Shown: one piece after another, positions 7,543 through 58,911 of the stretch
How the letters are laid out: each line of letters begins with the position of its first letter
How positions within the stretch are numbered: the first letter of the stretch is position 1
From: Kitasatospora phosalacinea
Lineage (GTDB): Bacteria > Actinomycetota > Actinomycetes > Streptomycetales > Streptomycetaceae
Assembly: GCF_000716545.1 (NCBI RefSeq)
Contig: NZ_JNWZ01000031.1
Location: 1-64,000 of the forward strand
Length of the DNA: 64,000 nt
Direction: 5' to 3'
Notes under the pieces: model-generated
Told to the model about the DNA's origin: nothing
What the model saw: only the letters and a program-made list of their open reading frames with translations
Database searches by the model: none
Translations under genes and position numbers: made by a program

Positions 7543-7968
7543 TCAGTCCCCGGAGTGGTCCGGGCCGCGGAAGCGGACGGTGATCAGCTTGCCGGAGCCG
7601 TCCTGGTGGACCTGCCAGTCGTCGGAGAGCAGTTCCACCAGGGCCATGCCGCGGCCGGAGACGGCGTTGGAGGTGGCCCGGCGCGGGCGCGGCGGGGTCG
7701 GGCAGTTGTCGTGCACGCTGACGTACAGGTAGCTGCCGTCCCAGGTGAGCAGCAGGTCGGCGTTGCTGTGGGCGTGGATGTGGGCGTTGGTGATCAGTTC
7801 GGAGACGACGAGCACCACGGCGTCGGCGGTGTCCGGGGCCTCGGTGTTCCAGCCGAGTCCGTCCAGGTGTTCACGGGCCCAGCGGCGGCCGGCCCGCACA
7901 CCGCCGGAGACCGGCATGCGGCGGGCCCAGCCGAGGGCCTTCACGCTGTTGCTGTCGGGCTGCGCCAT
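7543..7968 (-). CDS. RsbW-like anti-sigma/serine kinase (HATPase)
   Basis: A 141-residue HATPase_c-fold protein of the RsbW/SpoIIAB-like class that is abundant in Streptomyces. Visible motifs are the N box VVSELITNAHIHAHS, the D box VHDNCPTPP and a short SGRGMALVELLSDDW lid. ATG 7966-7968 follows a strong GGGGAGGAG. It is the last of a three-gene same-strand signalling set, 92 bp downstream of a response regulator-PP2C phosphatase, which is the classical opposing partner in a partner switch. The partner STAS antagonist or sigma factor is not next door. Confidence 0.88.
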   Translation of the reverse strand: MAQPDSNSVKALGWARRMPVSGGVRAGRRWAREHLDGLGWNTEAPDTADAVVLVVSELITNAHIHAHSNADLLLTWDGSYLYVSVHDNCPTPPRPRRATSNAVSGRGMALVELLSDDWQVHQDGSGKLITVRFRGPDHSGD

Positions 7969-8060
7969 CGCTCCTCCCCGAGTCGGTTCGTGCCTCGCCG
8001 ACCGGCTACCCCGTCCTTCCGGGGGCATGCCGGACGGGGTGTCCGGCGGGCGTCCGGGGT

Positions 8061-9263
8061 TCAGGGCCAGCGGATCTGGAGCAGCGCCATGTCGTCGGAG
8101 TGCCGGCCCGCGTTGAGGGTGCGGGCGCGGTCCACCAGGTGGGTGAGCAGCCGGTCGCCGGTGGCGCCGCCGGCCGCTTCGATCAGGGCGATCAGACCGG
8201 CGGTGCCGAGGCGTTGGGCGTCCGGCGCGCTGCCCGCGTGGCCCTCGATCAGGCCGTCGGTGTAGAGCAGCAGGCCGGAGTCGGCGGGCACGGCGTGCCG
8301 GGTGGGCTGCCAGTCGCCGAGGCCGGGGGCGATGCCGAGGGCCAGGCCGTACGCGCCGGGCAGTTCCCGGGCGGTGCCGCCGGTGAGCAGCAGCGGCGGG
8401 TGGTGGCCGGCCAGGTGGACGGTCAACTCGCGCTGGTCGGGCCGCAGTTCCAGGGTGGTGCAGGTGGCGAAGTTGTCGGCGGGGGCGCGTTCGGCGACCA
8501 GCACCTCCTCCAGCAGGTGCAGCAGGTCGGCGCCGCGGTGGCCGCCGAGGGTGAGGGCGCGCCAGGTGATGCGCAGGCACACGCCGAGCGCGGCCTCGTC
8601 CGGGCCGTGGCCGCTGACGTCCCCTATCACCGCGTGCACGGTGCCGTCGGGGGTGCGCACCACGTCGAGGAAGTCGCCGCCGAGCAGGGCGCGTTCGCGG
8701 CCGGGCAGGTAGCGGGTGGCGGCGGTGACGGGGGAGCCGTGCAGCAGCGGGGTGGGCAGCAGGCCGCGCTCCAGCCGGGTGTTCTCGTGCGCCCGCAACC
8801 GGTTCTCGCGCAGTTCGGCGGCGGCCTGCTCGGCCTGCTTGCGGTGCACGGCGTAGCGGATCACCCGGGTCAGCAGGTCGGGGCTGACCTGGCCCTTGAC
8901 CAGGTAGTCCTGGGCGCCGTTGGCCACCGCGAGGGCGCCGGTGCGGGACTCGTCGAGGCCGGTGAGCACGATGATCGCGGTCTCCGGGCGGACGGTCTGC
9001 AGGGTGCGCAGCGCGCTGATCCCGGTGGCGTCGGGCAGGTTGAGGTCGAGCAGGACGCAGTCGGCGCCGTGCGCGGACAACTGCTGGACGGCGGCGCCGA
9101 GGGACTGCTGCCAGACGAGCGAGTGCTCCAGGCCGGTGTCCAGCAGGAGTTCCTCGACCAGCAGCGCGTCCCCGGCGTCGTCCTCGACCAGCAGCACCCG
9201 GTAGGCGGGGTCGAGCGGCGGCGCGGTCGCCAGCGGCTGGGTGGTGGCGGTGGTGGGATTCAT
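8061..9263 (-). CDS. Response regulator with PP2C (SpoIIE-type) phosphatase output
   Basis: A 400-residue RsbU-like protein. The receiver domain (about 22-145) has the acidic pair VEDDAGDA, the phospho-acceptor in CVLLDLNLPD and the Lys in YLVKGQ. A short coiled linker follows, then a SpoIIE/PP2C phosphatase domain (about 190-400) with the metal-binding motifs LGGDFLDVV, IGDVSGHGPDEA, LLLYTDGLIE and SDDMALLQ. It should dephosphorylate a STAS anti-anti-sigma protein when its receiver is phosphorylated. Its ATG overlaps the TGA of the histidine kinase gene by four bases, so the two are translationally coupled cognate partners. Confidence 0.92.
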   Translation of the reverse strand: MNPTTATTQPLATAPPLDPAYRVLLVEDDAGDALLVEELLLDTGLEHSLVWQQSLGAAVQQLSAHGADCVLLDLNLPDATGISALRTLQTVRPETAIIVLTGLDESRTGALAVANGAQDYLVKGQVSPDLLTRVIRYAVHRKQAEQAAAELRENRLRAHENTRLERGLLPTPLLHGSPVTAATRYLPGRERALLGGDFLDVVRTPDGTVHAVIGDVSGHGPDEAALGVCLRITWRALTLGGHRGADLLHLLEEVLVAERAPADNFATCTTLELRPDQRELTVHLAGHHPPLLLTGGTARELPGAYGLALGIAPGLGDWQPTRHAVPADSGLLLYTDGLIEGHAGSAPDAQRLGTAGLIALIEAAGGATGDRLLTHLVDRARTLNAGRHSDDMALLQIRWP

Positions 9264-10945
9264 CCGGCGGTCCCAGCCGTTCCGGCGGGCACGGCGGCCT
9301 CGGCGGGCGCGGCCGGCCCGGGGGCGGGCTGGGCGGGCTGGGCGGGCTGGGCGGACGGTACGGCCTCGGCGGGCGGTACGGGCCCGGCCTCGGCTTCCTC
9401 GGCGGCAAGGGTCAGCACGACGCGGGTGCCGCCGGTGTGCGCGGTGTCCACGCGGATGGTGCCGCCGTGGAACTCGGTGATCTTCTTGCACATGGCCAGG
9501 CCGATGCCGTTGCCGGGGTACTCCTCGCGGGTGTGCAGCCGCTGGAAGATGACGAAGATCCGCTCGGCGAACTCCGGATTGATGCCGATGCCGTTGTCGG
9601 TGACGGCCAGCTCCCAGTGCTCGCCGGTGCGCCGGGCGGTGAGGGCGATCCGCGGCGGCCGGTCGGGGGCGCGGAACTTGAGCGCGTTGCTGACGAGGTT
9701 CTGCAGCAGCATGCCGAGCTGGGTGGCGTCCCCGGGCAGGGTGGGCAGCGGGTCGGCGGTGATCTCGGCGCCGGTCTCCTCGATGGCGATGGCGAGCGCG
9801 TCGCGGGTCGCGGCGAACACCTTCTCCAGGTCCACCGGCACGTACTGGCGGTGCAGCCGGCCGACCCGGGAGAACGCCAGCAGGTCGTTGATCAGGGTCT
9901 GCATCCGGTTGGCGCCGTCGACCGCGAACCCGATGTACTGGTTGGCCCGGTCGTCGAGCTGCGCGGCGTAGCGGCGCTGCAGCAGTTGGCAGAAGCTGGC
10001 GACCTTGCGCAGCGGCTCCTGGAGGTCGTGCGAGGCGACGTAGGCGAACTGCTCCAGTTCGGTGTTGGAGCGGCGCAGGTCGGCGGCCTGCTCGTCGAGC
10101 TGTTCGCGGGTCAGGTCGGCGAGGGCGAGCTGCTCGGCCAGCCGGCGGCGCATCCCCTCGACGTCGGCGGCCAGCTGGGCCAGGTCGGCGGGGCCGGAAC
10201 GGGTGTCGACGGGGTGGTCGAACTCGCCCGCGGCGACCCGCCGGACGTCCCGGGAGAGGGCGTCCAGCGGCAGGGTGATGCCGCGCAGCCCGACGAAGAC
10301 GGCGCCGGACAGCAGCAGCAGGGTGACGCCGATGGTGCCGAACACCCAGTGGCTGAACGTCTCGGCGTCGGTCAGCTCGGCCGCCGCCCGGTTGCGCGAG
10401 TCCTCCAGCCGGTCGCGCAGGGTGGTGCCCGCGTCCCGGATCGCGTCGAACTCGGCCTTGCCGACCTCGGCGTTGACGGTGGCGAGCGGCACGGGCGCGC
10501 CGGCCGGCGAGGCCGCCACCGGTTCGGCGACGTCCCGCTGCCAGGTGGAGACCCGGGCGAGCAGCGCGTCGAGGTCGGCGAGCGCCGCGCCGTCCCCGGC
10601 GAGCAGGGTGCGCAGCTTCTCGACGTCGGCCGCGGCGTCGGCCCGGCCCTGGGTGTACGGCTGCAGGAAGTCGGGTCTGCCGGTGATGCCGTAGCCCCGG
10701 ATGCCGGTCTCCTGGCCGACCAGCGCGCCGTCCAACCGGACCGAGGTGATCAGGGCGGGGGAGGAGCGCCGGGTGAGCCGGTCGGTGGCGTCGGAGGCGC
10801 GGTTCAGCGCCCAGCCGCCGAGGGCGCCGAGCACCACCAGGACGGCGAGGGCGGCGAGCACGCTGGCCCCCAGCCACTGCCGGGTCGTCCAAGCGGCCCA
10901 GGGCCGCCCGTTCAGCCCGGACCGATCCGTCACCGCGCCAGCCAC
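9260..10945 (-). CDS. CHASE3-HAMP sensor histidine kinase
   Basis: A 561-residue membrane kinase. TM1 is at about 24-46. An extracytoplasmic CHASE3 domain follows (GALVGQETGIRGYGITGRPD at about 73-92), then TM2 at about 201-220, HAMP at 221-275, and a coiled coil. A phytochrome-like HisKA follows, with H306 in YVASHDLQEPLRKV, and then an HATPase with NLVSNALKF, DNGIGI and GNGIGLAMCKKI. The C-terminal 50 residues are an Ala/Pro-rich tail. It overlaps the start of the RR-PP2C gene (ATGA). Signal unknown; CHASE3 senses small extracellular cues in relatives. A palindrome lies in the divergent region upstream. Confidence 0.93.
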   Translation of the reverse strand: MAGAVTDRSGLNGRPWAAWTTRQWLGASVLAALAVLVVLGALGGWALNRASDATDRLTRRSSPALITSVRLDGALVGQETGIRGYGITGRPDFLQPYTQGRADAAADVEKLRTLLAGDGAALADLDALLARVSTWQRDVAEPVAASPAGAPVPLATVNAEVGKAEFDAIRDAGTTLRDRLEDSRNRAAAELTDAETFSHWVFGTIGVTLLLLSGAVFVGLRGITLPLDALSRDVRRVAAGEFDHPVDTRSGPADLAQLAADVEGMRRRLAEQLALADLTREQLDEQAADLRRSNTELEQFAYVASHDLQEPLRKVASFCQLLQRRYAAQLDDRANQYIGFAVDGANRMQTLINDLLAFSRVGRLHRQYVPVDLEKVFAATRDALAIAIEETGAEITADPLPTLPGDATQLGMLLQNLVSNALKFRAPDRPPRIALTARRTGEHWELAVTDNGIGINPEFAERIFVIFQRLHTREEYPGNGIGLAMCKKITEFHGGTIRVDTAHTGGTRVVLTLAAEEAEAGPVPPAEAVPSAQPAQPAQPAPGPAAPAEAAVPAGTAGTAG

Positions 10946-13647: not shown

Positions 13648-13708
13648 GGACGGCCCGCCCGATCGGGCCGCGCCTCCGGCTCCACCCCTCACCGCCCCCG
13701 GAGGCACC

Positions 13709-14659
13709 GTGCTCTTCCGCCCCACCGTCGAGGCCGACCTCGACGGCTTCCTTCCGCTGCTCGTGCCCGACCCCGCCGGCGCCCTGACGGCCGACACCTA
13801 CCTGGCCCGGCTCGCCACCGGCGAGTACCGCCCGGGGCGGACGTGGATCGCCCAGGACGCGCCGGGCGCCGCACCGCTCGCGCTCGCCGTCTGGTGGAGC
13901 GGCCCGGGTGCCGACCGGCCGGGCGCGCTGGACGCCGTGCTCGTCCGCGACAGCGTCCGGTCCGTCGCCGAACGCACCGCGCTGGCCGCCGAGTTGCTCA
14001 CCGCCGCGCACGCGGCGTACGGGCACGCCCCCGCCCACCACCTCTTCCTCCCCGAGGACTGGCACGACCGACCCGACGTCCTCGCCGCGGTGGCCTGGCG
14101 GCGGGAGGCGGCCGGCCGGGCCGGCCTCACCGACGCCCTGGAGCGGCTGCGCCACGAGTGGACGCCGGGCGCGGGCCTGCCCGCCCCGAGCGGTCGGCTG
14201 CGCTTCCGCCCCGAACCCGACGACGAGGTCTTCGTCGACCTGTTCCGCCGCGTCCTGTCCGACACCCTCGACGCCACCTCCCGCACCGCCGCCGCCCACC
14301 TCGGCACCGAGGCCCAGGCCCGGGCCGACGTCGCCTTCTACCGGGACGGCATGCCCGGCGACCGCGGCTGGTGGCGCACCGCCCACACCCCCGACGGCGA
14401 GCCGGTCGGCTTCACCGTCCCCTCCCGCAACTCCGCCTCCCCGGTGGTCGGCTACCTCGGCGTGCTGCCCGAGCACCGCGGTCGCGGCCACGCCGAGGAG
14501 ATACTCGCCGAAACCACCCGGATCCTGGCCGCCGAGGCCGCCGCCGAGCACGTCCGCGCCGACACCGACCTGGCCAACACCCCGATGGCCGCCGCCTTCG
14601 GACGGCTCGGCTACCGCACCACCGCCCGCCGCCTGGTCCTCTCCGCCCCTCCGGGGTGA
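13709..14659 (+). CDS. GNAT-family N-acetyltransferase (two-domain)
   Basis: A 316-residue protein. The C-terminal half is a canonical GNAT domain: VVGYLGVLPEHRGRGHAEEI provides the acetyl-CoA pyrophosphate loop, followed by ADTDLANTPMAAAFGRLGY. The N-terminal half (1-160) resembles a second, degenerate acetyltransferase fold with no clear CoA loop. GTG 13709 is preceded by GGAGG. It lies downstream of a short leader ORF and two hairpins, which suggests inducible expression, as seen for some antibiotic-modifying enzymes. The acceptor substrate is unknown. Confidence 0.85.
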   Translation: MLFRPTVEADLDGFLPLLVPDPAGALTADTYLARLATGEYRPGRTWIAQDAPGAAPLALAVWWSGPGADRPGALDAVLVRDSVRSVAERTALAAELLTAAHAAYGHAPAHHLFLPEDWHDRPDVLAAVAWRREAAGRAGLTDALERLRHEWTPGAGLPAPSGRLRFRPEPDDEVFVDLFRRVLSDTLDATSRTAAAHLGTEAQARADVAFYRDGMPGDRGWWRTAHTPDGEPVGFTVPSRNSASPVVGYLGVLPEHRGRGHAEEILAETTRILAAEAAAEHVRADTDLANTPMAAAFGRLGYRTTARRLVLSAPPG

Positions 14660-14808
14660 GAGCGGGCCCGGGGCACCGGGCCGGTGCGCGGGGCCGTGTT
14701 GCGAGAGCATGACGCCGCGTCACAATCCCGGCCGGCGGTTGATCACCGCCGCCCCGGTGTGTGAGCGTGGCGGCAGGACGGAGACCGAACGGACCGAGGA
14801 GGAACCCG

Positions 14809-15828
14809 GTGCCCACCCCCGACCGGCCGCTGCGCTCGCTGGGATTCCTGACCATCGGGCTGTTCGACGAGCACGACCCGGCGGGCGGCCACGAAGCCAC
14901 CCTGCGGCTGATCGAACTCGGCGAGCGGCTCGGCTTCGACACCGCCTGGCTGCGCCACCGGCACCTGCAGTACGGCATCTCCTCCCCGCTGACGGTGCTC
15001 GCCGCCGCCAGCCAGCGCACCAGCCGGATCGGCCTGGGCACCGCCGTCACCCCGCTCGGCTGGGAGAACCCGCTGCGCTACGCGGAAGACCTGGCCACCG
15101 TCGACGTGCTCTCCGGCGGGCGGCTCAACCCCGGCGTCAGCGTCGGCGTGCCGGTCCACTTCGAGGACGTCAAGGGCGCGCTGTACCCGGACACCGCCGA
15201 CCGGGAGGACTTCGGCTACGGGCGGGTCGAGCGCCTGCTCAACCTGCTGCGCGGACAGCGGGCCAGCGGCTTCCGGGGCACCGAGGGCATCGAGGCGTAC
15301 TCCGAGCGCGTCCAGCCGCACGTGCCCGGCCTGGCCGCCCGGCTCTGGTACGGCGGCGGCAGCCTGCGCTCGGTGCGCTGGGCCGGCGAGCACGGGCTGA
15401 ACCTGCTCACCAGCAGCGTGGTGCGGGCCGAGCGGGACGGAGACTTCGAGGCCCACCAGCTGGCCCTGATCCGGGAGTTCCGGGCCGCCCACCCCGCGGG
15501 CGGGCGGGCCCGGGTCTCGCACGGCCTGGTGGTCGTCCCCACCGACAGCGCCACCCCCGAGCAGGCCGCCAAGTACCAGGCGTACGCGGAGTCCAGGTAC
15601 GCCCGCACGCTCGCCCCGCAGGGCCCCGGCCGACTGCTGTTCGCCCCCGACCTGGTCGGCACCAGCGAGCAGCTCGCCGAACGGCTGTACGCGCACGCCG
15701 GGTTCCGGGAGGCCGACGAGGTGGCCTTCGCCCTCCCGTTCACCTTCGCGCCGGAGGACTACGCGCAGATCCTCACCGACCTGGCCACCCGGCTCGGCCC
15801 GCTGCTCGGCTGGCGCCCGGCCGACTGA
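14809..15828 (+). CDS. Luciferase-like (LLM) flavin-dependent oxidoreductase
   Basis: A 339-residue bacterial-luciferase-fold monooxygenase. It opens with the beta strand SLGFLTIGLFDEHDP. The family's VLAAASQRTSRIGLGTAVTP and RYAEDLATVDVLSGGRLNPG blocks follow, then LWYGGGSLRSVRWAGEHGLN. GTG 14809 follows GAGGAGG. The FMN- versus F420-dependence and substrate cannot be told. It stands alone between a GNAT gene and a convergent LysR regulator. Confidence 0.9.
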   Translation: MPTPDRPLRSLGFLTIGLFDEHDPAGGHEATLRLIELGERLGFDTAWLRHRHLQYGISSPLTVLAAASQRTSRIGLGTAVTPLGWENPLRYAEDLATVDVLSGGRLNPGVSVGVPVHFEDVKGALYPDTADREDFGYGRVERLLNLLRGQRASGFRGTEGIEAYSERVQPHVPGLAARLWYGGGSLRSVRWAGEHGLNLLTSSVVRAERDGDFEAHQLALIREFRAAHPAGGRARVSHGLVVVPTDSATPEQAAKYQAYAESRYARTLAPQGPGRLLFAPDLVGTSEQLAERLYAHAGFREADEVAFALPFTFAPEDYAQILTDLATRLGPLLGWRPAD

Positions 15829-48084: not shown

Positions 48085-48717
48085 ATGACAGCTGAGGACT
48101 CCTCGATCGAGGCGCTGGGCGCCCTCGCCGACCCGGTGCGGCGCGCCCTCTACCGGCACGTGGCCGCGGCCCCGCAGGAGGTCGGCCGGGACGCGGCGGC
48201 CGAGGCGGCGGGCGTCTCCCGCTCCCTGGCCGCCTTCCACCTGGACAAGCTGGTCGACGCCGGCCTGCTGACGGCCTCCTACCGCCGCCCCGCCGGGCGC
48301 GGCGGCCCCGGCGCCGGCCGCCCCGCCAAGTTCTACCGCCGGGCCGACACCGAGATCGCGGTCACCCTCCCGCCCCGGGCCTACGGCGCGGTCGGCCGGC
48401 TGCTCGCCGAGGTGGTCGAACGGGCGGGCCTGGACCGGGAGTTGCAGGCGGCGGCCCGCACGGAGGGCGAGGCGGGGGAGTGCGCGTCCGACGACCTGCC
48501 GGACGCCCTGCGCGAACGCGGCTACGCGCCGTTCCTGGACGGGGAGGTGCTGCGGCTGGGCAACTGCCCCTTCCACGCGCTGGCGGACGAGTTCCCCGCG
48601 CTGGTGTGCGGAATGAACCTGGCCCTGCTGGAGGGGCTGGCCGGGGACGGCTGGACGCCCGCGATGGACCCGTGCGCGGGCGGGTGCTGCGTGTCGCTCT
48701 CCAGGAGCCAGCTCTAA
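48085..48717 (+). CDS. Cys-rich ArsR/SufR-like HTH regulator
   Basis: A 210-residue regulator. The N-terminal winged helix (ALADPVRRALYRHVAAAPQE, VSRSLAAFHLDKLVDAGLL) is of DeoR/ArsR type. The C-terminal domain carries five Cys: GNCPFHALADEF, ALVCGMN and DPCAGGCCVSL (spacing C-X13-C-X20-C-X3-C-C). This resembles the Cys-rich metal or [4Fe-4S] sensor domain of SufR-type repressors. TAGACT lies exactly seven bases before the ATG, so it is leaderless. It probably controls the DUF3291 gene 48 bp downstream (inference). Confidence 0.85.
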   Translation: MTAEDSSIEALGALADPVRRALYRHVAAAPQEVGRDAAAEAAGVSRSLAAFHLDKLVDAGLLTASYRRPAGRGGPGAGRPAKFYRRADTEIAVTLPPRAYGAVGRLLAEVVERAGLDRELQAAARTEGEAGECASDDLPDALRERGYAPFLDGEVLRLGNCPFHALADEFPALVCGMNLALLEGLAGDGWTPAMDPCAGGCCVSLSRSQL

Positions 48718-49321: not shown

Positions 49322-51142
49322 TCAGCCGATCGGCTTCAGGCGGGTGCCGGAGGCCGTGACCGCCTCGACCGCGGTGGGGCCGGCGCCCGGGTTGTCGAGG
49401 GCCAGGGTGCGGGTGGGCGGGGCGGGTTGGTCGAGGCGGCGGGTCGGGGTGGTGACGGCCAGGCGGGTGATCCGGCGGCTGGCGGCCACCAGGAGGTAGG
49501 GGGTGCCGTTCGGGGCGCGCCAGCGGTACTGGGCGACGGTGTCCTGCTCGTAGCGGCTGCAGGCCCGCCCGTCCGCGTGCGCCAGCCGCTCGGCGCGGCC
49601 GCCGCCGGGCGGCAGCACCGCCGCCGCCGCGCTGCCCGAGCCGTCCCAGCGGTCGGCCCGCAGGCAGGCCCAGGCCAGTTCGCCGGCGTTCTGCGGAAGC
49701 CGCTGGTCGGCGAACTCCCACAGGTTCAACTGCCGTACCTCCGGCCCGGCTTCGGGCACCGCGCAGGCGCCCGCCGCCCACCGGCGCAGGGCCTGCGGGC
49801 CGACCGCCTCACGTGGCGGCCGGGCCGGGGAGGAGGCGTCCGGCGGCGGGGTGTACGTCAGGTGGGCGGGGGCGAGGCCGCCGAGGTCGGCGAGCAGGAA
49901 GGCGTGCTGCTCGGCGACCACCGGGTCCGAGCGCAGTTGCAGCACCGGCCCCGGGCAGCCCGGCGCGGCCGCCCCCGGCACCGGCGCGGTGACCCCGGCG
50001 GTGAGGGCCAGCGGGTGTTCCGCCTCGTCCGGCCGGTCCAGCCGCCGGGTCGCCGCGGACGCCACCCAGGGGGCCAGCAGGTACCGCGCGCCGTGGTCGT
50101 CGCGGTGCAGGACGACCGCCGCGCCCGCCGTCACGTCGCTGTCCCCGGCGGGTGCCAGGGCGAGGGCCGGGCCCGATCCGGACGCCGGGTCCTCGGTGTA
50201 CCTGGCCAGGCTCCGGCCGTCCGTCAGCAGCACCACCGCCGCGCCGTCCAGCCGCCCCGCGTACAGGAGCTGGGGCACGGCGACGGGCGGGCCCGCCTGC
50301 CGCCAGGCGGCCGTCGCGCGGCTGACCAGGGCGCCGTCGTCGCGCAGGTCGCCGCGGGCGGGCCAGACCGGGAGGCCGAGCTTCGCGGTCGTCCGCCACA
50401 GGTCGTCGGCCCGGCGCTCGGGAACGGCCGCGCCCGGGGCGGCGGCCGCCGCCGCGTCCGGCCCGCCGGTGCCCGGCCCGGCCGGGAGCAGGGCCGGCAG
50501 GACGCCCGCGGTCAGCGCCACCGCCACCGTCGCGGCCGCCGCCGTCAGCCGGCGGCGGCGCAGCAGGTCGCCCGGCTGCAGGTGCACCGTGCAGGCGTCG
50601 TGGCCGGGCGGGAGGTCGGACCAGGCGGGGCCGCCCAGCGAGCGCAGCAGTTCGGCACCGGCCCGGGCGGCGTCGGCGGGCGCCTCCACCCCGGCCCAGG
50701 CCAGCACCTCGGCGGCCTCGGCCCGGGGCAGTCCGTCCAGCGCCTGGATCGCGAAACCCGCCCGCGCCGGGGCCGGCAACCCGGCCAGCCGGGCGTCGAG
50801 TTCGGCGTCCCCGTCGTCCGGCGGCGTGAACAGCCGCACCCCCCACACCCGGGGGAACGCCGCTCCGGGCCACCGCCGCCGGCGCAGCGCCCCGCGCAGC
50901 ACCCGGATCCGCGCCGCCGGGTACCCGGCCGCCCCGGCCGCCCGTCCGCCGAGCACCGGCAGGGCCCGCTGCACCACCGCGTGCGCCGCCACCACCCGGG
51001 CGTGCCGCCCCCGGTCGGCGGGCAGCGTCAGGTACGCCAGGCACACCAGCCGCCGGTAGTGCCGCACCAGTACGGCCTCCGCGGAACCCGGCCGACCGCC
51101 CGCACCGGTCACCCCGGGCTGCGGCAGCGTCTTGAGATCCAT
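49322..51142 (-). CDS. Sigma-like membrane protein with large ectodomain
   Basis: A 606-residue protein of a kind seen only in actinomycetes as far as I know. The N-terminal cytosolic part (1-190) resembles a degenerate ECF sigma factor: SAEAVLVRHYRRLVCLAYLT looks like region 2, and GFAIQALDGLPRAEAAEVLA like region 4. One membrane span follows (about 199-219), then about 385 extracytoplasmic residues rich in Pro/Ala. The start is ATG 51142 with GGAGGGG upstream. I do not assign a function; a tethered regulator is one possibility. Confidence 0.65.
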   Translation of the reverse strand: MDLKTLPQPGVTGAGGRPGSAEAVLVRHYRRLVCLAYLTLPADRGRHARVVAAHAVVQRALPVLGGRAAGAAGYPAARIRVLRGALRRRRWPGAAFPRVWGVRLFTPPDDGDAELDARLAGLPAPARAGFAIQALDGLPRAEAAEVLAWAGVEAPADAARAGAELLRSLGGPAWSDLPPGHDACTVHLQPGDLLRRRRLTAAAATVAVALTAGVLPALLPAGPGTGGPDAAAAAAPGAAVPERRADDLWRTTAKLGLPVWPARGDLRDDGALVSRATAAWRQAGPPVAVPQLLYAGRLDGAAVVLLTDGRSLARYTEDPASGSGPALALAPAGDSDVTAGAAVVLHRDDHGARYLLAPWVASAATRRLDRPDEAEHPLALTAGVTAPVPGAAAPGCPGPVLQLRSDPVVAEQHAFLLADLGGLAPAHLTYTPPPDASSPARPPREAVGPQALRRWAAGACAVPEAGPEVRQLNLWEFADQRLPQNAGELAWACLRADRWDGSGSAAAAVLPPGGGRAERLAHADGRACSRYEQDTVAQYRWRAPNGTPYLLVAASRRITRLAVTTPTRRLDQPAPPTRTLALDNPGAGPTAVEAVTASGTRLKPIG

Positions 51143-51629
51143 CGGCCCCTCCAAGGCATCGGGACGAGCCCGGCTCTACGTCGGACGGACCAACGAGTGG
51201 ATCATCGGATAGTTGCGCTACGCACCGCCGCGCCACCGCCGCGCCGCTTGCCGCGCTCCCTGCCGACCGGGTGGACCTCGCCGCACCGGGTGGTCGTCCG
51301 GTCGCTCCGTGCTGCTGTCGACGGCGGTGCGCTCGGCTCCGAGCCGCCCACCCCGACGACGGTCCGCCGGCGAAGCCCGCGTGCCCCGCGCGCCCCGCGC
51401 GCCCCATGCGCCCGTCCGCGTGGCCGGAACGGGAACGGAACTCCCGCCCATGGCCACCGCACTCCACCGGACGATCACCCCGGCCGCCCTGGCGCCGGCC
51501 GCCGCGTTCCTGGCCGCCGGGCCGGCACCGGGTGGTCCTCGACCGGCGGATCAGCCTGGCCCACGTCTGATCGGCCCGCAGCGCCCGAACGGCCCGGCCC
51601 CCGCCGTGCGGGGCCGGGCCGCCCAGGCG
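51143..51629. other. Gap between the sigma-like gene and cas3
   Basis: No convincing gene. Near 51450-51570 two plus-strand frames contain protein-like fragments, one ending HRVVLDRRISLAHV and a stop, which might be a frameshifted relic. No CRISPR-like direct repeats occur. Confidence 0.4.
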
Positions 51630-53879
51630 TCAGAGCGGGCCGTCGTGGCGGGCGCTGGAGCGCCAGTCCGCGGTGCGGACCAGGGACTCCAGGTGGGCCA
51701 GGCGGAACGGGCCCAGGCCGGGGTCGGCCAGCAGGGCGGCGACCAGCCCGGCCCAGGCGCCGCCCGGGCGGAACGGGACGGCCGGGTCGAGCGGCCGGGA
51801 CGGGAAGCGCTCGCCGGTGGAGACGGCCACCGGCGGGGTGCGGTCGCCCGCGCGGACACCGAGCAGGGTGTCCGCGTCCTCGCCCGGCCCGGGGCGGACC
51901 GAGACCCGCACCTGCCCGTGGTGCGCCGCGACCAGGTACGTCACCAGGGACGGGTCGGCGCCGGGGGCGTGCCAGTGCTCGCCGTCCAGCAGCAGCAGCG
52001 CGCTGACCAGCTCGTGCCGGAAGTGCGGACGGGCCGAAACCCCGTTGTTCCAGGGGGCCTTGGACTTGGCGAGCAGCCCCGCCGGCGGGTCGCCGCCGTT
52101 GTCGCGCAGCTTCGCCTGGAACACCTCGTGGCACTTGCCGAGGTCGTGCAGCCGGGCGGCCAGCGCCACCGCCTCCCGCTGCGCCCCGCTCAGCCCCGGC
52201 AGTACGGCGGTGAGCGCCCGGGCCTCCTCCTCGGTCTCCCGCAGGTGCTGGTCGAGGCCCACCCACGCGGCGCACCCGGTCCCGGGCGGCGTGCGCCCGG
52301 CGAAGAGCGGCGGCACCGGCACCCGGCTGTCCGGCCGCCAGCCCAGCCCCGGCAGGTGGCCGCCGCCGGCCGCGTCCAGGGTCAGCACCGCCCCCGGGCG
52401 CAGGTCCGCCGTCCCGGCCCGCCGCCACCGGCCGTCGTCGCCGTCCCGCAGCCACGCCCCGCCGCCCGCGCCGCCCGCGCTGCCCCCGCCGCCCCCGCCG
52501 TCCGGGCCCGCCGCCGTCAGCAGGGCCGACACCTCGGCGAGCGGCGCCTCGCACTGCTCGGCCCGGCCGGGCTCCGGCTCGTCCTCCGCCGGACGCCCCT
52601 GCCCGCCCCAGTCGCGCCAGGCCACGAAGACGGTGCGCCGCTCCTCGGCGCAGACCCACGGGGCCGCGTCGACCTGAGCGGCCCCGCGCCCGGTGTCGAA
52701 CAGCGCCGCCAACTCCGCCCCGCCCAGCGCCGGGGCGGCCGGCGCCGGCTGTTCGACCGGGGCCAGGAACAGGTCGGCGGCGGTGACCGCCACCCCCTCG
52801 TGCGCCGCCAGCCACCGCGCCGCCTCCGGCCCGGCCCCGACCCCCTCCGGCGGGACGCACCACAGCAGTTCGCCGCCCTCCGGGTGCTCGCCGTACCGGT
52901 CGCAGCGCCCGGCCCGCTGCACGACGGCGCTCCATGGCGCGAGCTCGGTGAACACGGTGCGGCCGGACAGGTCGGACCCGGCGTCCAGCGCCCGCGTCGC
53001 CACCAGGAACCCGTCCTCCGGCAACTCCCGTACCAGGGCCTGCCGTTCGGCGGAGCGCAGGTACGGGTGCAGCAGCACCACCGGCTGCCGCGGGTGTGCG
53101 GCGCGCAGCGCGGCGTGGACCTCGCGGGCCCGGCCGGGGGAGTCGAGCGCCGCGATGGTCCGGGTGCCGGGGCGGTGCGCCGCGCCGAGCGCCGCCACCA
53201 GCTCCGGCACGTACCGGGCCGGGTCCGGGCGCAGCCGCCGGACGGTGCGCCGCCCCGCCGGGGCGGCGTCCGGCGGGGGAGCGGCGCCGTCGCCGACGGC
53301 GGACATCCAGGTGCTGCCGGTCGGCGCCGTGGTGCCCAGCGCGTCGCGCAGCGCCTGCAGCCGCTCGCCGGTCGCCAGGCCGGGGCCCAGCAGGGGCGCC
53401 TCGTCGAACACCCAGTGGGCGTCGTTGTTGAGCAGCCCGAACGACACCGGCGCCATCGCCCGGGCGTCGGCGAAGCCGCGCATCAGCGCCCGGCTCAGCA
53501 GCACGTCGTGGGTGCCGACCAGGACCGCCGTCCGCTCGGGGTGCCGCCGCCAGGTGCCGTTCTGCCCGTCGGGCCCGGCCAGCAGGTGCAGGTCCACCCG
53601 CCCCGCGAGGCCCGGCCGGTCCAGCCAGCCGCCGATCCGGGCGTGCGTCCAGTCCGCCAGGCCGCCCTGCGGCAGCACGTACACCAGCCGCCGCGCGCCC
53701 GCCCCCGGCGACGCCACCGCCCGCCGGTACAGCCACGCCAGCACGACCCCCGCCGTCTTCCCGCCCCCCGACGGCACCCGCACCCGCTCCGGCAGCCCGT
53801 CCGCCGCGAGCGCCCGCTGGTAGCCGTACGGGCGGTGCCCGGTCGCCGTGCGGAAGAACTCCTCGAACCCCTGCACCAT
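51630..53879 (-). CDS. cas3: Solitary Cas3-like helicase-nuclease (type I-G/I-U layout)
   Basis: A 749-residue DExH helicase followed by a C-terminal HD nuclease, the domain order of type I-G (former I-U) Cas3. Walker A is PSGGGKT (36-42), motif II VFDEAP (157-162), and motif VI QRAGRCDR (321-328). HD ligands are visible as H545, LHDLGK with H578 and D579, FRHE with H622, and AAHHG at 652-656. A Gly-rich insert lies at 460-474. Motif II reads DEAP where relatives often have DEVQ or DEAH. ATG 53879 has GAGGGGG upstream. No cas7, csb, csx17, cas1 or cas2 gene or array is in the window, so it cannot act in standard interference from this locus. Confidence 0.88.
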   Translation of the reverse strand: MVQGFEEFFRTATGHRPYGYQRALAADGLPERVRVPSGGGKTAGVVLAWLYRRAVASPGAGARRLVYVLPQGGLADWTHARIGGWLDRPGLAGRVDLHLLAGPDGQNGTWRRHPERTAVLVGTHDVLLSRALMRGFADARAMAPVSFGLLNNDAHWVFDEAPLLGPGLATGERLQALRDALGTTAPTGSTWMSAVGDGAAPPPDAAPAGRRTVRRLRPDPARYVPELVAALGAAHRPGTRTIAALDSPGRAREVHAALRAAHPRQPVVLLHPYLRSAERQALVRELPEDGFLVATRALDAGSDLSGRTVFTELAPWSAVVQRAGRCDRYGEHPEGGELLWCVPPEGVGAGPEAARWLAAHEGVAVTAADLFLAPVEQPAPAAPALGGAELAALFDTGRGAAQVDAAPWVCAEERRTVFVAWRDWGGQGRPAEDEPEPGRAEQCEAPLAEVSALLTAAGPDGGGGGGSAGGAGGGAWLRDGDDGRWRRAGTADLRPGAVLTLDAAGGGHLPGLGWRPDSRVPVPPLFAGRTPPGTGCAAWVGLDQHLRETEEEARALTAVLPGLSGAQREAVALAARLHDLGKCHEVFQAKLRDNGGDPPAGLLAKSKAPWNNGVSARPHFRHELVSALLLLDGEHWHAPGADPSLVTYLVAAHHGQVRVSVRPGPGEDADTLLGVRAGDRTPPVAVSTGERFPSRPLDPAVPFRPGGAWAGLVAALLADPGLGPFRLAHLESLVRTADWRSSARHDGPL

Positions 53880-54100
53880 CCACGTCCCCCTCGTCGTCTG
53901 CGGACCCCGACTCTAGGCCGCCGCACGGACGGCGCGGGCGACGCCGGGTCAGGCCGCCGCGCGGTCGCACCCATCCGTCCCGCCGCCAGATCCGAAGACG
54001 ACACGGGGACGCCCGTCCCCGCCGCAGACCGCCCGGCGTACGAACATTGACAGATCGTCATGTCGACACCGGGAAGCCTCCCCGCACCGAAAGCAGCACC

Positions 54101-55447
54101 ATGACACTCGCCATCGTCCTGTTCACCCAGGACCTGCGCCTGCACGACAACCCCGCCCTGTACGCCGCCCGGGCCGGCGCCGACCGGGTGGTGCCGCTGT
54201 TCGTCACCGACCCGGCCGTCGCCGCCGCCGGCTTCGCCGCCCCCAACCGGGCCGCGTTCCTGGCCGGCTGCCTCGCCGACCTCGACGCCGGCCTGCGCCG
54301 GATCGGCGGGCGGCTGCTGGTGCGCGAGGGCGACACCGCCGAGCAGACCGCGAGGCTCGCCGCCGAGACCGGCGCGGCGAGCGTCCACGTCGCCGCCGGG
54401 GTCAGCGGGTACGCCCGGCGGCGCGAGCAGCGGCTGCGCCGGGCGCTGGGGGAGCGGCTGCGGGTGCACGAGGGCTCGCTGACGGCCGTCCCGCCCGGCG
54501 CCGTCCGGCCCGCCGGGCGGGACCACTACGCCGTCTTCACCCCCTACCAGCGGGCCTGGCAGCAGACCGCCCGCCGCGCCCCGCTGCCCCGGCCGCGCGC
54601 CCTGGACACCCCCGAGGGCCCGGCCGGCGCGGCCCTGCCCACCGCGACGCCCACCGCCCGCAGCCTGCCCGACCCCGGCGAGAGCGCCGCCCGCCGCGCC
54701 TGGCAGCGCTGGCGCGGCGATCACTACGCCGACCTGCACGACGCCCTCGCCGCCGACGGCACCTCGCACCTCTCCCCGTACCTGCACTTCGGCTGCCTGT
54801 CCGCCAACGAACTCGTCCACCTCGCCGAACGCCGAGGCGGCGACGGCGCCGAGGCCTTCGTCCGGCAACTCGTCTGGCGCGACTTCCACCACCAGGTCCT
54901 GGCCGCCCGCCCCGACGCCGCCCACGCCGACTACCGGACCCGCCACGACGACTGGCGCGCGGACCCGGACGAGTTCGCCGCCTGGTGCGAGGGCCGCACC
55001 GGCTTCCCGATCGTCGACGCCGGCATGCGCCAGCTCGCCGAGACCGGCTGGATGCACAACCGGGCCCGGCTGCTCACCGCCAGCTTCCTCGCCAAGTCCC
55101 TCTACCAGGACTGGCGCCCGGGCGCCGCGCACTTCCTGCACCACCTGGTCGACGGCGACCTCGCCAACAACCAGCTCAACTGGCAGTGGGTCGCCGGGAC
55201 GGGCACCGACACCCGCCCCAACCGCGTCCTCAACCCGCTCGCCCAGGCCGACCGGTACGACCCCGACGGCGCCTACGTCCGCCGCTGGGTGCCCGAACTC
55301 GCCCACCTCCCCGGCCGCGAGATCCACCGCCCCTGGCGGTCCGCCCGCCGCCCCGCCGACTACCCCCCGCCGCTGATCGCCCCCGACACCACCGGCCACC
55401 GCCTGCGCGCCGCCCGCCTCCCGCAGGGCCCGCCGCCGGGCGCCTGA
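54101..55447 (+). CDS. phr: Deoxyribodipyrimidine photolyase (class I CPD)
   Basis: A 448-residue FAD photolyase that repairs UV-induced pyrimidine dimers with blue light. The N-terminal antenna domain starts IVLFTQDLRLHDNPALYAAR. The FAD domain has LSPYLHFGCLSANEL, RQLVWRDFHHQVLA and WMHNRARLLTASFLAKSL. The terminal block DGDLANNQLNWQWVAGTGTD and NPLAQADRYDPDGAYVRRW carry FAD and electron-transfer Trp residues. ATG 54101 is used. A TTGACA lies at 54047-54052. Divergent from cas3, 221 bp apart. Confidence 0.95.
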   Translation: MTLAIVLFTQDLRLHDNPALYAARAGADRVVPLFVTDPAVAAAGFAAPNRAAFLAGCLADLDAGLRRIGGRLLVREGDTAEQTARLAAETGAASVHVAAGVSGYARRREQRLRRALGERLRVHEGSLTAVPPGAVRPAGRDHYAVFTPYQRAWQQTARRAPLPRPRALDTPEGPAGAALPTATPTARSLPDPGESAARRAWQRWRGDHYADLHDALAADGTSHLSPYLHFGCLSANELVHLAERRGGDGAEAFVRQLVWRDFHHQVLAARPDAAHADYRTRHDDWRADPDEFAAWCEGRTGFPIVDAGMRQLAETGWMHNRARLLTASFLAKSLYQDWRPGAAHFLHHLVDGDLANNQLNWQWVAGTGTDTRPNRVLNPLAQADRYDPDGAYVRRWVPELAHLPGREIHRPWRSARRPADYPPPLIAPDTTGHRLRAARLPQGPPPGA

Positions 55448-57068: not shown

Positions 57069-58715
57069 TCAGCGCGGCGTACCGAAGTCCTGCGTCCACC
57101 AAGGCCCACCGGCGCCCAGGTGGACCCCCACCCCGAGCTCGGTGAACTTGCAGTTCAGGATGTTCGCCCGGTGACCCGGGCTGTTCATCCAACTGTCCAT
57201 CACCGCGGCCGCGTCCTTCTGACCGCGCGCGATGTTCTCACCCCAGCCGCTCCACGCGTACCCGACGGCGTCGATCCGCTGCTGCGGACCGGCGCCGTCC
57301 GGGTTGGTGTGGTCGAAGAAGTTCCGCGCCGCCATGTCCTCGGAGTGCCGCAGCGCCGCCGTCGCCAGCTTCGCGTCCGCCGTCACCGGCCCGCACCCCG
57401 CCTTCGCGCGCTCCGCGTTGACCAGCTCCAGCACCTGCTGCGCCTGGTCCGCCGAACGCTTCGCCGCCGCGGAGGCGGCCGGGGCGGACGACGACGGCGC
57501 CGACGGGACCGCGGGGGCGGCCGGCGCGCTCGCCTCCCGCACCGTCGGCGAGGGCGACCCGCCGGCGGACGCGGACGGCGAGGGGGACGGCGAAGGGGAC
57601 GGGAGGGCGGCGGCCGAGGAGACGGCGGGGGACGCGGCGGGGGCGGGCGCGCCGCCCTCCGTCGGCTCCACCAGCGCCGCCGCGGACGCCGGCGCCGGCT
57701 CGGCCGCGTCCACCGCGGGCGGCGCGTCCGACCCGCCGGCCGCCACCAGCAGCCCCGCCACCACCGCCACCGCGGCCACCACCCCGCCGCCCAGCAGCGC
57801 CGGACGGGGCCCGCGCCGCCGCGCCCGCCGCCGGCCGTGCCGGGAGGCCGCCGCCCGGTGCGAACCACCGCCCCCGGCGGACCCCCGCCGGTGCGCGGCC
57901 CGCCCGGCGCCGCCGGGCGGCGGGGCGTCCGGGTACCCGGCGGCGTCCAGCCGCAGACCGTCCGGCAGCGGCACCATCGCCAGCCCCGCCAGCAGCCCCT
58001 CCGCCGGGACCAGGCCGCGGCGCTGCTGCTCGCACACCGCGCACTCCCGCACATGCCGCCCGATCCGCTTGCGCCACAGCGGGCCGGGCACGCCGTTCCA
58101 GCCCGCCGTCAGCTCCGCCAGCCACGGACAGCCCGGCACCGCGGCCAGCGCCCGGACCACCACCCGGGCCGCCTGCAACTGCCCCTTCATCCGCTGCACC
58201 CGCACCGCCGCGTGCTGCGGCGACACCTCCAGCGCCGCCGCCAGCTCGGCCCGGGACAGCTCGCCCGCCGCCTCCAGCCACCACAGCGACAGCAGCTCGC
58301 GGTCCGTGCCGTCCAGCCAGCGCGTCGCCTCCGCGACCTCGCGGCGCTGCTCCGACAGGCCCAGCCGGACGATCGTCAGGCCCACGAAGTCCGCCGCCGG
58401 ATCGGCCACCGCCGCCGGGTCGGGCAGCGCGTCCACCGCGCCCGCGCCCGCGTCCCGGAACCGCCGCCGCACCTGGTTCAGCGCGATCGCCACCAGCCAG
58501 CTGCGGAACCCCGCCGGATCGCGCAGCGCCCCCAGGCCGTCCACGGCCCGCAGCATCGTCTCCTGCACCACGTCGTCGGTGTCCGGGTGGCCCGAGAGGG
58601 CCCGGCCCACCACGTTGTACACCAGCGGCAGGTGCCCGCCGACCAGCTCCGCCACCGCCTGCCGGTCCCCGCGCTGCGCCCGCCCGACCAGCGCCGCCGC
58701 CCGCCCACTGTCCAC
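57069..58715 (-). CDS. ECF sigma factor fused to zinc finger, membrane span and CAP domain
   Basis: A 548-residue fusion. Residues 1-195 are an ECF sigma factor: region 2 in PLVYNVVGRALSGHPDTDDV, with QETMLRAV, and region 4 in LSRAELAAALEVSPQHAAVR. An H-X3-C-X2-C zinc motif (RHVRECAVCE, about 221-228) marks an anti-sigma-like domain. A single span follows at about 306-327. A Ser/Pro/Ala linker of about 95 residues leads to a secreted SCP/CAP domain (423-548: LELVNAERAKAGCGPV, HSEDMAARNFFDHT, GENIARG, SWMNSPGHRANI). GTG 58715 is the likely start (GAGGA upstream); GTG 58754 is possible. A membrane-tethered sigma factor released by a surface event is the natural hypothesis. Confidence 0.88.
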   Translation of the reverse strand: MDSGRAAALVGRAQRGDRQAVAELVGGHLPLVYNVVGRALSGHPDTDDVVQETMLRAVDGLGALRDPAGFRSWLVAIALNQVRRRFRDAGAGAVDALPDPAAVADPAADFVGLTIVRLGLSEQRREVAEATRWLDGTDRELLSLWWLEAAGELSRAELAAALEVSPQHAAVRVQRMKGQLQAARVVVRALAAVPGCPWLAELTAGWNGVPGPLWRKRIGRHVRECAVCEQQRRGLVPAEGLLAGLAMVPLPDGLRLDAAGYPDAPPPGGAGRAAHRRGSAGGGGSHRAAASRHGRRRARRRGPRPALLGGGVVAAVAVVAGLLVAAGGSDAPPAVDAAEPAPASAAALVEPTEGGAPAPAASPAVSSAAALPSPSPSPSPSASAGGSPSPTVREASAPAAPAVPSAPSSSAPAASAAAKRSADQAQQVLELVNAERAKAGCGPVTADAKLATAALRHSEDMAARNFFDHTNPDGAGPQQRIDAVGYAWSGWGENIARGQKDAAAVMDSWMNSPGHRANILNCKFTELGVGVHLGAGGPWWTQDFGTPR

Positions 58716-58911
58716 TGCCCGGTCCGTCCTCGTGTTCTCGCGTCCTGCCCTCACACCCTCGGAGATCCACCGGCCGCCCGCGGATAACGAGAAGCGGACG
58801 ACGAGAATTCGGACCACCGCGACGCGGACCGCCACGGTGCGGGCCGCCGGGGTGCGGGCCGGACCTCCCGGCAGGGGCGAAGCATAGTGAGCCCGCCCCG
58901 GTGACGACGAA

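Follow-up and report, generated by a model that had tools for sequence, protein, structure and literature searches.

The reverse strand of a 64,000-nucleotide stretch of Kitasatospora phosalacinea DNA, here called the window, carries a cas3g gene that, as far as searched, stands alone. Together with its nearest relatives it seems to belong to one old, maintained lineage of solitary Cas3g copies that left CRISPR. Alignments, trees and substitution rates show, at the level of sequence, a single clade under purifying selection, in which the HD active site is retained and the constraint on the helicase has loosened. The chances appear about evenly balanced that this is a stand-alone lineage ('solo-Cas3g') which came out of type I-G and acts without Cascade, crRNA or array. 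On the best reading, its product would be a guide-independent, one-gene DNA nuclease exapted from type I-G and probably serving innate defence.

The open reading frame (51630..53879, reverse strand) starts with ATG and codes for 749 amino acids, and the contig extends to position 73,294, which is 9.3 kb beyond the window. The product scores 541.5 bits with the NCBIfam model TIGR02621 (Cas3g) against a curated cut-off of 400, and its top PADLOC match is Cas3g with 610.6 bits. The kinship with Cas3 that was proposed in an earlier, sequence-only reading of this DNA is thus upheld. The HD domain is recognised by the NCBIfam model cas3_HD TIGR01596 (55.9 bits; cut-off 43.45) and by Pfam Cas3_HD PF18019 (residues 536-657; 38.2 bits; cut-off 23.1), and Pfam Cas3-like_C_2 matches residues 250-329. 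The RecA-type helicase part, with a boundary set by hand, takes up residues 1-400 (52680..53879, reverse strand). It contains motif I (Walker A) as GGGKT at residues 38-42, motif II as DEAP at residues 159-162, motif III as SAV and not the family-usual SAT, and motif VI as QRAGRCDR at residues 321-328. The C-terminal HD nuclease part covers residues 536-749 (51633..52274, reverse strand), and H545, H578-D579, H622, H653-H654 and D738 are all found in it; these we take to be the metal ligands of Cas3 HD domains. The last residues, WRSSARHDGPL (739-749; 51633..51665, reverse strand), are typical of the clade in the alignment.

Both the profiles and an AlphaFold2 model (mean pLDDT 91.3, pTM 0.93) place the helicase before the C-terminal HD domain. 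The domain order, the helicase motifs and the HD His/Asp residues had been read from the letters beforehand and were borne out by profiles and alignment; the DEAP of motif II was also confirmed, and it occurs in 6 of 61 solitary rows of the alignment. In structure comparisons with the model, a Cas3 entry tops the Foldseek list and 8wtk tops the VIA-align list, each being followed by many unrelated helicases. As the VIA-align rows mostly cover residues 1-515, the HD part is hardly probed by structure. The window frame is a real, full-length Cas3g.

The genome itself (G000) is a 7.62-Mb draft in 226 contigs with 98.7% completeness, in which the window is C31:1-64000. No match to the Csx17/Cas8g profile was found in it, whereas all four type I-G control genomes were positive. 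Cas1 is likewise absent from this genome with positive controls, yet a true I-G genome (G008) is also without Cas1. The search for Cas7g (GSU0053) returned nothing in the genome and is weak, as no control gave a signal either. The window gene is the single Cas3_HD match of the genome, and Cascades of other subtypes were probed there through Cas1 and Cas3_HD. At the loci compared, no Csb2 was recognised beside cas3. Among the repeats found in the 64-kb window there is no CRISPR-like array, as the sequence-only reading had said; the four I-G control loci have arrays of 16 to 36 repeats, found under other settings than those of the window search. An exact 14-mer core of the I-G repeat was taken from the control arrays, so that a diverged repeat would escape detection, and it occurs in 0 of 20 carrier genomes (own included) and in 4 of 4 control genomes. 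The earlier reading had found no CRISPR partners in the window. Carried to the whole genome, this stands for csx17, Cas1 and the I-G repeat core, and the zero count for Cas7g comes with silent controls.

The search was extended to other carriers. csx17 is missing from all nine solitary genomes (own included; controls 4 of 4) and from all 12 other same-genus carrier genomes (controls 2 of 2), which amount to about 20 distinct carriers, as G022 and G001 are very probably the same organism. This absence gives no support to the proposal that the gene is a relic with its partners elsewhere. Within what was searched, the window Cas3g is solitary genome-wide. It belongs to the Cas3g family but lacks the type I-G features that were tested with working controls, namely Cas8g/Csx17 and cas1 in its genome and an array with the I-G repeat in either the genome or the window.

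In a scan of named genomes, 12 relatives turned up. Four of them, at 42-43% identity, come from Streptosporangiaceae (two Acrocarpospora, one Microbispora and one Sinosporangium; L008, L009, L010, L013) and are I-G genes: cas3 is followed by csx17, as recognised by profile, and then by two more genes, which from position and sequence are read as cas7g and csb2. The other eight, at 49-77% identity, are in genomes without csx17 and have no neighbours of csx17, cas7g or csb2 type. In the same genus, 17 of 61 genomes match at E<=0.001. True relatives (best E below 1e-80) are present in 13 of these 61, own included, and the other four matches are weak (6e-7 to 5e-4); the presence of the gene is thus patchy. 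The frame is full length in 12 of the 13 copies, and the thirteenth (G048, locus L058) is frameshifted. Among the best 120 of 271 homologues, P0001-P0047 are near full length with at least 48% identity, and the identity drops to 44% or less from P0049 on. Outside this step are the partial sequences P0048, P0057 and P0088, which align with roughly half of the query at 52-57%. Flanks are known for the L loci only, the solitary state of the P rows of the clade being presumed, and only four comparison genes are known to sit in I-G loci.

In a tree of 140 rows, 65 rows (with eight pairs identical in the kept columns) lie on one side of a branch with an SH-aLRT of 100 and a stem of 0.48. This side holds the context-checked solitary loci that were put in, none of the I-G controls and not the Embleya locus L056; the frameshifted L058 was left out of the tree. 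A selection of 65 rows under a mixture model again placed the solitary loci on one side of a branch. The clade spans three families, Streptomycetaceae, Micromonosporaceae and Catenulisporaceae, with members named as Kitasatospora, Streptomyces, Streptacidiphilus, Yinghuangia, Embleya, Streptodolium, Catellatospora, Virgisporangium, Micromonospora and Catenulispora. All 11 overlapping pairs tested have a dN/dS below 1, at 0.34-0.53 (NG86, with dS squeezed by the high GC). A relic or pseudogene is expected to show a broken frame or neutral evolution; here the frame is open and dN/dS is below 1. The suggestion of a repurposed Cas3-like nuclease gains support in a wider form, as that of a whole lineage, from the single clade, the 12 full-length copies among 13 and the dN/dS values.

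Carriage by phages or mobile elements was also considered, and the scans gave it no support. No match to the window Cas3g was found in the phage database. The scan of viral contigs, weak because it used two short patterns only, gave seven pattern matches, none of them a relative, and the plasmid database gave one match, at 39% identity, on a 5.7-Mb linear record of Embleya. This Embleya protein (L056/P0103) sits on a long branch; its record has no csx17 and its neighbours are ordinary. Its motif III is TAM, not SAT, and its motif II is DEPY, without Gln. Its joining to the solitary clade is neither rejected nor supported (p-AU 0.54), and from its sequence it may be a sister of that clade or a second exit from I-G; P0103 was counted in the comparison set of the residue and identity analysis.

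Residues were counted over 61 distinct of 66 solitary rows (L058 included), among which about three genes are still counted twice with other ends, and over 74 comparison rows; P0048, P0057 and P0088, all under 600 aa, were dropped from this alignment. The SAT of motif III is present in none of the 61 solitary rows and in 73 of the 74 comparison rows. SST is the commonest solitary form, along with SAV, SSV, SSD, SSE and others, and since 28 of the 61 rows retain Thr, many members show only a mild change. Similarly, Gln at position 4 of motif II occurs in 0 of 61 solitary against 71 of 74 comparison rows. Among the solitary rows, 57 of 61 have the C-terminal RHDG (P0013, L058, L060 and L067 do not), compared with 1 of 75 among the others (P0079, last 60 residues). 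No row has lost H545, and losses of the other HD residues are confined to the frameshifted L058 and the truncated P0013. In the helicase, P0045, P0047 and L006 have lost the Walker A Lys, which the short P0046 also lacks; the motif II Glu is lost in five rows from four genes (P0040 and L007, which are one gene, P0045, L006 and L067), and motif VI is lost in P0045 and L006. A few members apparently have a dead-looking helicase beside an intact HD site. Most of the solitary rows are also shorter, with small segments absent after motif III and before the HD part. Compared with the window model, the I-G model has the extra elements H219-222, E234-236 and H245-250 after motif III.

The two domains also evolve at different rates. 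The mean pairwise identity among 54 solitary rows is 70.6% for the HD part and 61.6% for the helicase, as against 52.7% and 60.2% among 32 comparison rows; the solitary set comprises 45 of 47 P rows (without P0013 and P0046, and with P0039, P0044, P0045 and P0047) and 9 of 19 L rows. On a fixed tree whose branch lengths were fitted for each domain separately, the helicase/HD rate ratio came to 1.78 for the crown of the solitary clade, 1.01 for its stem and 0.97 for the rest of the tree. L006, P0045, P0047, P0013, P0046, P0044, P0039 and duplicates had been left out of this fit. As the stem ratio is 1.01 and the odd rows were left out, the shift seems to have come after the exit from I-G, and the broken members do not seem to be its sole cause. 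The dN/dS of the HD part is below that of the helicase in 10 of 11 pairs, the exception being L007-L012. By these sequence measures, the domain constraint is reversed in the solitary clade, with a slow HD part and a fast helicase.

The neighbours of the gene differ between most loci. The site of the window is common to five loci (the window, L002, L057, L058 and L065), and L060 and L067 share another. L004 and L011 have a common ABC-transporter gene cluster downstream of cas3, so that the neighbours are not wholly random; L061 and L064 share a peptidase gene, and a few individual families turn up at two loci. The photolyase that had been noticed beside the gene was confirmed by Pfam at 54047-55447. 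The link to DNA repair that had been built on it was not supported, since a photolyase lies near cas3 in four of the five loci of the window's site (the contig of L002 ends first) and in none of the 15 other loci tested. The adjacency is local synteny restricted to this site, and the photolyase was rejected as a functional partner. The other neighbour, described as a sigma-like membrane protein, is a 610-aa protein (49322-51154) found in all five loci of the site; that description is unconfirmed, as no Pfam, NCBIfam or PADLOC model matches it. No conserved operon partner emerged across the locus set, just occasional recurring pairs. At L059 alone, a 145-aa gene without a PADLOC match overlaps the cas3 start by 4 nt. 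A gene that reads as RNase-H-like from its sequence adjoins the L003 copy.

No consistent defence-island signal surrounds solitary cas3g. A PADLOC search of 55 chosen neighbour proteins gave nine families at E<=1e-5, of which eight occur in one member each and one in two. Six of the nine were placed by scanning 20 of the 55 proteins singly, and the placed matches are mostly shared domains. The mad2 match is a protein of L007 that reads as methyltransferase-like, the CARF-LolE match corresponds to FtsX-like permeases of L004 and L011, a desaturase and two TIR-type models match one protein of L012, and Csa3 matches a regulator in the window (48085-48717). The families mad3, mad8 and AriA were found among the 55 without assignment to a protein.

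A scan for the sigma-70 consensus upstream of the gene returned no promoter, and no RNA family was found near it. A -10-like box, TAGAGT, lies 31-36 nt 5' of the ATG (53910..53915, reverse strand). Of 18 loci, 16 (14 of 15 groups) have the pattern TANNNT within the 45 nt upstream of the start, compared with 10 of 502 control stretches; the test was set up after the flanks had been viewed, so its p-value is descriptive. The box begins 10-12 nt before the gene in nine loci, 34-44 nt before it in six and 6 nt before it in L060, where spacings may err by about a codon in L005, L007, L011 and L012, whose starts are match boundaries. From this we infer that the gene has a promoter of its own, which is often leaderless. 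The 51-89 bp directly upstream are common to copies whose other 1.5-kb flanks differ; three Catellatospora copies (about 91% identical) share 66-72 bp upstream and have no matching stretch in the 1.5 kb downstream. Judged from sequence, cas3g is a one-gene unit that has a -10-like box of its own and neighbours that vary.

Without Cas8g, solo-Cas3g would have to locate DNA on its own. It is predicted to be an autonomous HD-type ssDNA nuclease or nickase, whose RecA part would mainly bind and present DNA and gate the nuclease and would not be a long-range reeling motor. ATP is probably still bound in most members and apparently not in a few. The likely trigger would be exposed ssDNA, replicating foreign DNA (a phage or a conjugating plasmid) or a phage factor; switching on by a phage factor is possible, as in Hna. 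The result would be single-gene innate defence with a logic comparable to that of Hna or Nhi. The latter is said to be an anti-phage helicase and DNA nuclease in one gene. A guide-free ssDNA nuclease or nickase fits best with the retained HD site, the loosened motor and the patchy single-gene spread. In the type I-G system of Tsu, Cas3 joins Cascade via Cas8g and does not bind dsDNA alone, and Walker A/B mutants nick without processive degradation (PMC9638904); a helicase-poor Cas3 can thus still cut. As most members retain Walker A, the D-E of motif II and motif VI, some may still have a working motor. The fuller proposal is more tentative and falls a little short of an even chance: an adaptive effector would have turned into a guide-free innate nuclease, the constraint on its HD part strengthening while its helicase shifts away from a motor and closer to a sensor or gate, and the promoter-plus-gene unit would be spreading in actinomycetes.

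Other explanations were weighed against this one. The protein could be a housekeeping or stress nuclease for DNA repair, acting on ssDNA at stalled forks or lesions and not in defence. Five loci at one site, the want of relatives among phages and viral contigs, the inconsistent company of defence genes and the RNase-H-like reading of the gene beside the L003 copy would all suit such a role, which we nevertheless consider unlikely: a gene present in 13 of 61 same-genus genomes and at many different sites does not behave like a housekeeping gene, and the photolyase adjacency is local synteny. Toxin-like abortive infection, in which the HD part cuts host DNA and the helicase is both inhibitor and sensor, would suit the relaxed helicase and conserved HD part, as a sensor plus an effector. 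It has a parallel in the helicase-nuclease Hna, described as autoinhibited and freed by phage SSB (PMC13381803). However, no antitoxin-like partner recurs near cas3, and this role appears distinctly improbable.

A Cas3 acting in trans for co-resident Cascades of other subtypes is a still weaker candidate. Some carriers do have other CRISPR systems, as Cas1 matches in three of nine solitary genomes (G001, G003 and, weakly, G005) indicate, and six of the 13 same-genus carriers have other Cas3_HD matches. Yet eight of these ten matches, in frames of 952-1610 aa and with 124-196 bits, fit the own Cas3 of those systems (of the remaining two, the one in G035 is a frame of 336 aa and the one in G024 is weak). 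The solitary gene is the sole Cas3_HD match in seven carriers (G000, G021, G023, G031, G048, G060 and G069), and the genome of the window is without Cas1 and csx17. Slightest of all is the chance that the gene is a relic in decay, left over from a type I-G locus that has been lost. The broken helicase motifs of some members, the frameshifted copy (L058/G048) and the truncated one (P0013) would agree with decay, but they stand against one deep clade across three families, full length in 12 of 13 same-genus copies, dN/dS below 1 in every one of 11 pairs, a kept HD site and a -10-like box retained at different sites.

The I-G Cas3g of the four Streptosporangiaceae loci is of the same family as the solo-Cas3g of the window and has the same helicase-HD order and HD residues, at an identity of 42-43%. 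Those loci, however, have csx17, putative cas7g and csb2, and arrays, none of which was found for the solitary clade in the searches made; the clade is without SAT and the motif II position-4 Gln (0 of 61 each), is mostly shorter and has the domain constraint reversed. The closest precedent found for a Cas nuclease outside CRISPR is, by analogy, solo-Cas4, which is patchy in bacteria, lies outside CRISPR loci and has a proposed role in defence or repair (PMC5704561). It belongs to another nuclease family, and the main text of that paper has no mention of Cas3 (PMC5704561). Hna shares the one-gene logic of a helicase with a DNA nuclease, but it is described as a 3'-5' ssDNA exonuclease (PMC13381803), whereas the nuclease activity of solo-Cas3g is predicted. 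Hna and Nhi were compared with the window protein via PADLOC only, where Cas3g is the top match. In the 2025 classification of CRISPR systems, abundant Cas3 and CARF homologues outside CRISPR-Cas were noted during profile building, in passages that describe no solo-Cas3g lineage (PMC12669027). One paper set aside an 'orphan Cas3' of Mycobacterium as a false positive (PMC10333696); the window protein, in contrast, is a Cas3g of full length whose scores exceed the curated cut-offs. In the open PMC literature, subscription papers and preprints being outside this scope, no report of solo-Cas3g was found.

Many members of the clade are annotated as CRISPR-associated Cas3, and CRISPR typing by cas3 alone would thus mislead. 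Solo-Cas3g is a concrete candidate for a single-gene defence or repair nuclease, and its natural helicase-poor variants offer a means to separate the roles of the HD and helicase domains. Accounts of Cas3 present it as an executor that Cascade loads; to judge from a maintained lineage free of CRISPR, it may also exist by itself.

At the site that the window shares with four other loci, a protein of 610 aa (window 49322-51154) is encoded in all five, and none of Pfam, NCBIfam or PADLOC gave a match for it. The gap from cas3 to the photolyase gene is only 167 bp in the window. Two other loci of this synteny group carry genes of a single family between cas3 and photolyase (L065 7187-8134; L058 10479-11420), and this family, with one PALP match, is read as a PLP-dependent enzyme. 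Read from its sequence, the product of another window gene (57069-58835) has a sigma-factor-like front fused to a C-terminal stretch resembling a CAP/SCP domain.

Among the other cas3 loci, two from distant genomes each have a cluster of FtsX-type ABC-transporter genes downstream of cas3 (L004 8810-12053; L011 13729-16693). In L059 alone, a 145-aa gene (10464-10901) on the same strand as cas3 overlaps its start by 4 nt; a PADLOC search gave no match for the protein. Near the cas3 of L012, a protein (13679-15649) has an oxidoreductase-like front, and TIR-type PADLOC models match its C-terminal part with E-values of 1e-6 and 4.4e-6.

The helicase itself is altered in some copies. The Walker A Lys is missing from the solitary Cas3 of Catenulispora pinisilvae (L006, 590-2677) and from two database homologues, P0045 and P0047, while the HD residues are intact in all three; motif VI is also gone from L006 and P0045. 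These are apparently natural helicase-poor Cas3 proteins. In the same-genus genome G048, the L058 cas3 copy (7777-10188) has its helicase and HD parts in separate frames, a split reflecting either a pseudogene or a sequencing error.

The Cas3g of Embleya sp. NBC_00888 (L056, 8001-10469) has 39% identity, a long branch and the motifs DEPY and TAM. Nitrilase and agmatinase genes lie nearby. csx17 was not found in the record carrying it, NZ_CP108785.1. This Cas3g possibly represents a second exit from type I-G.
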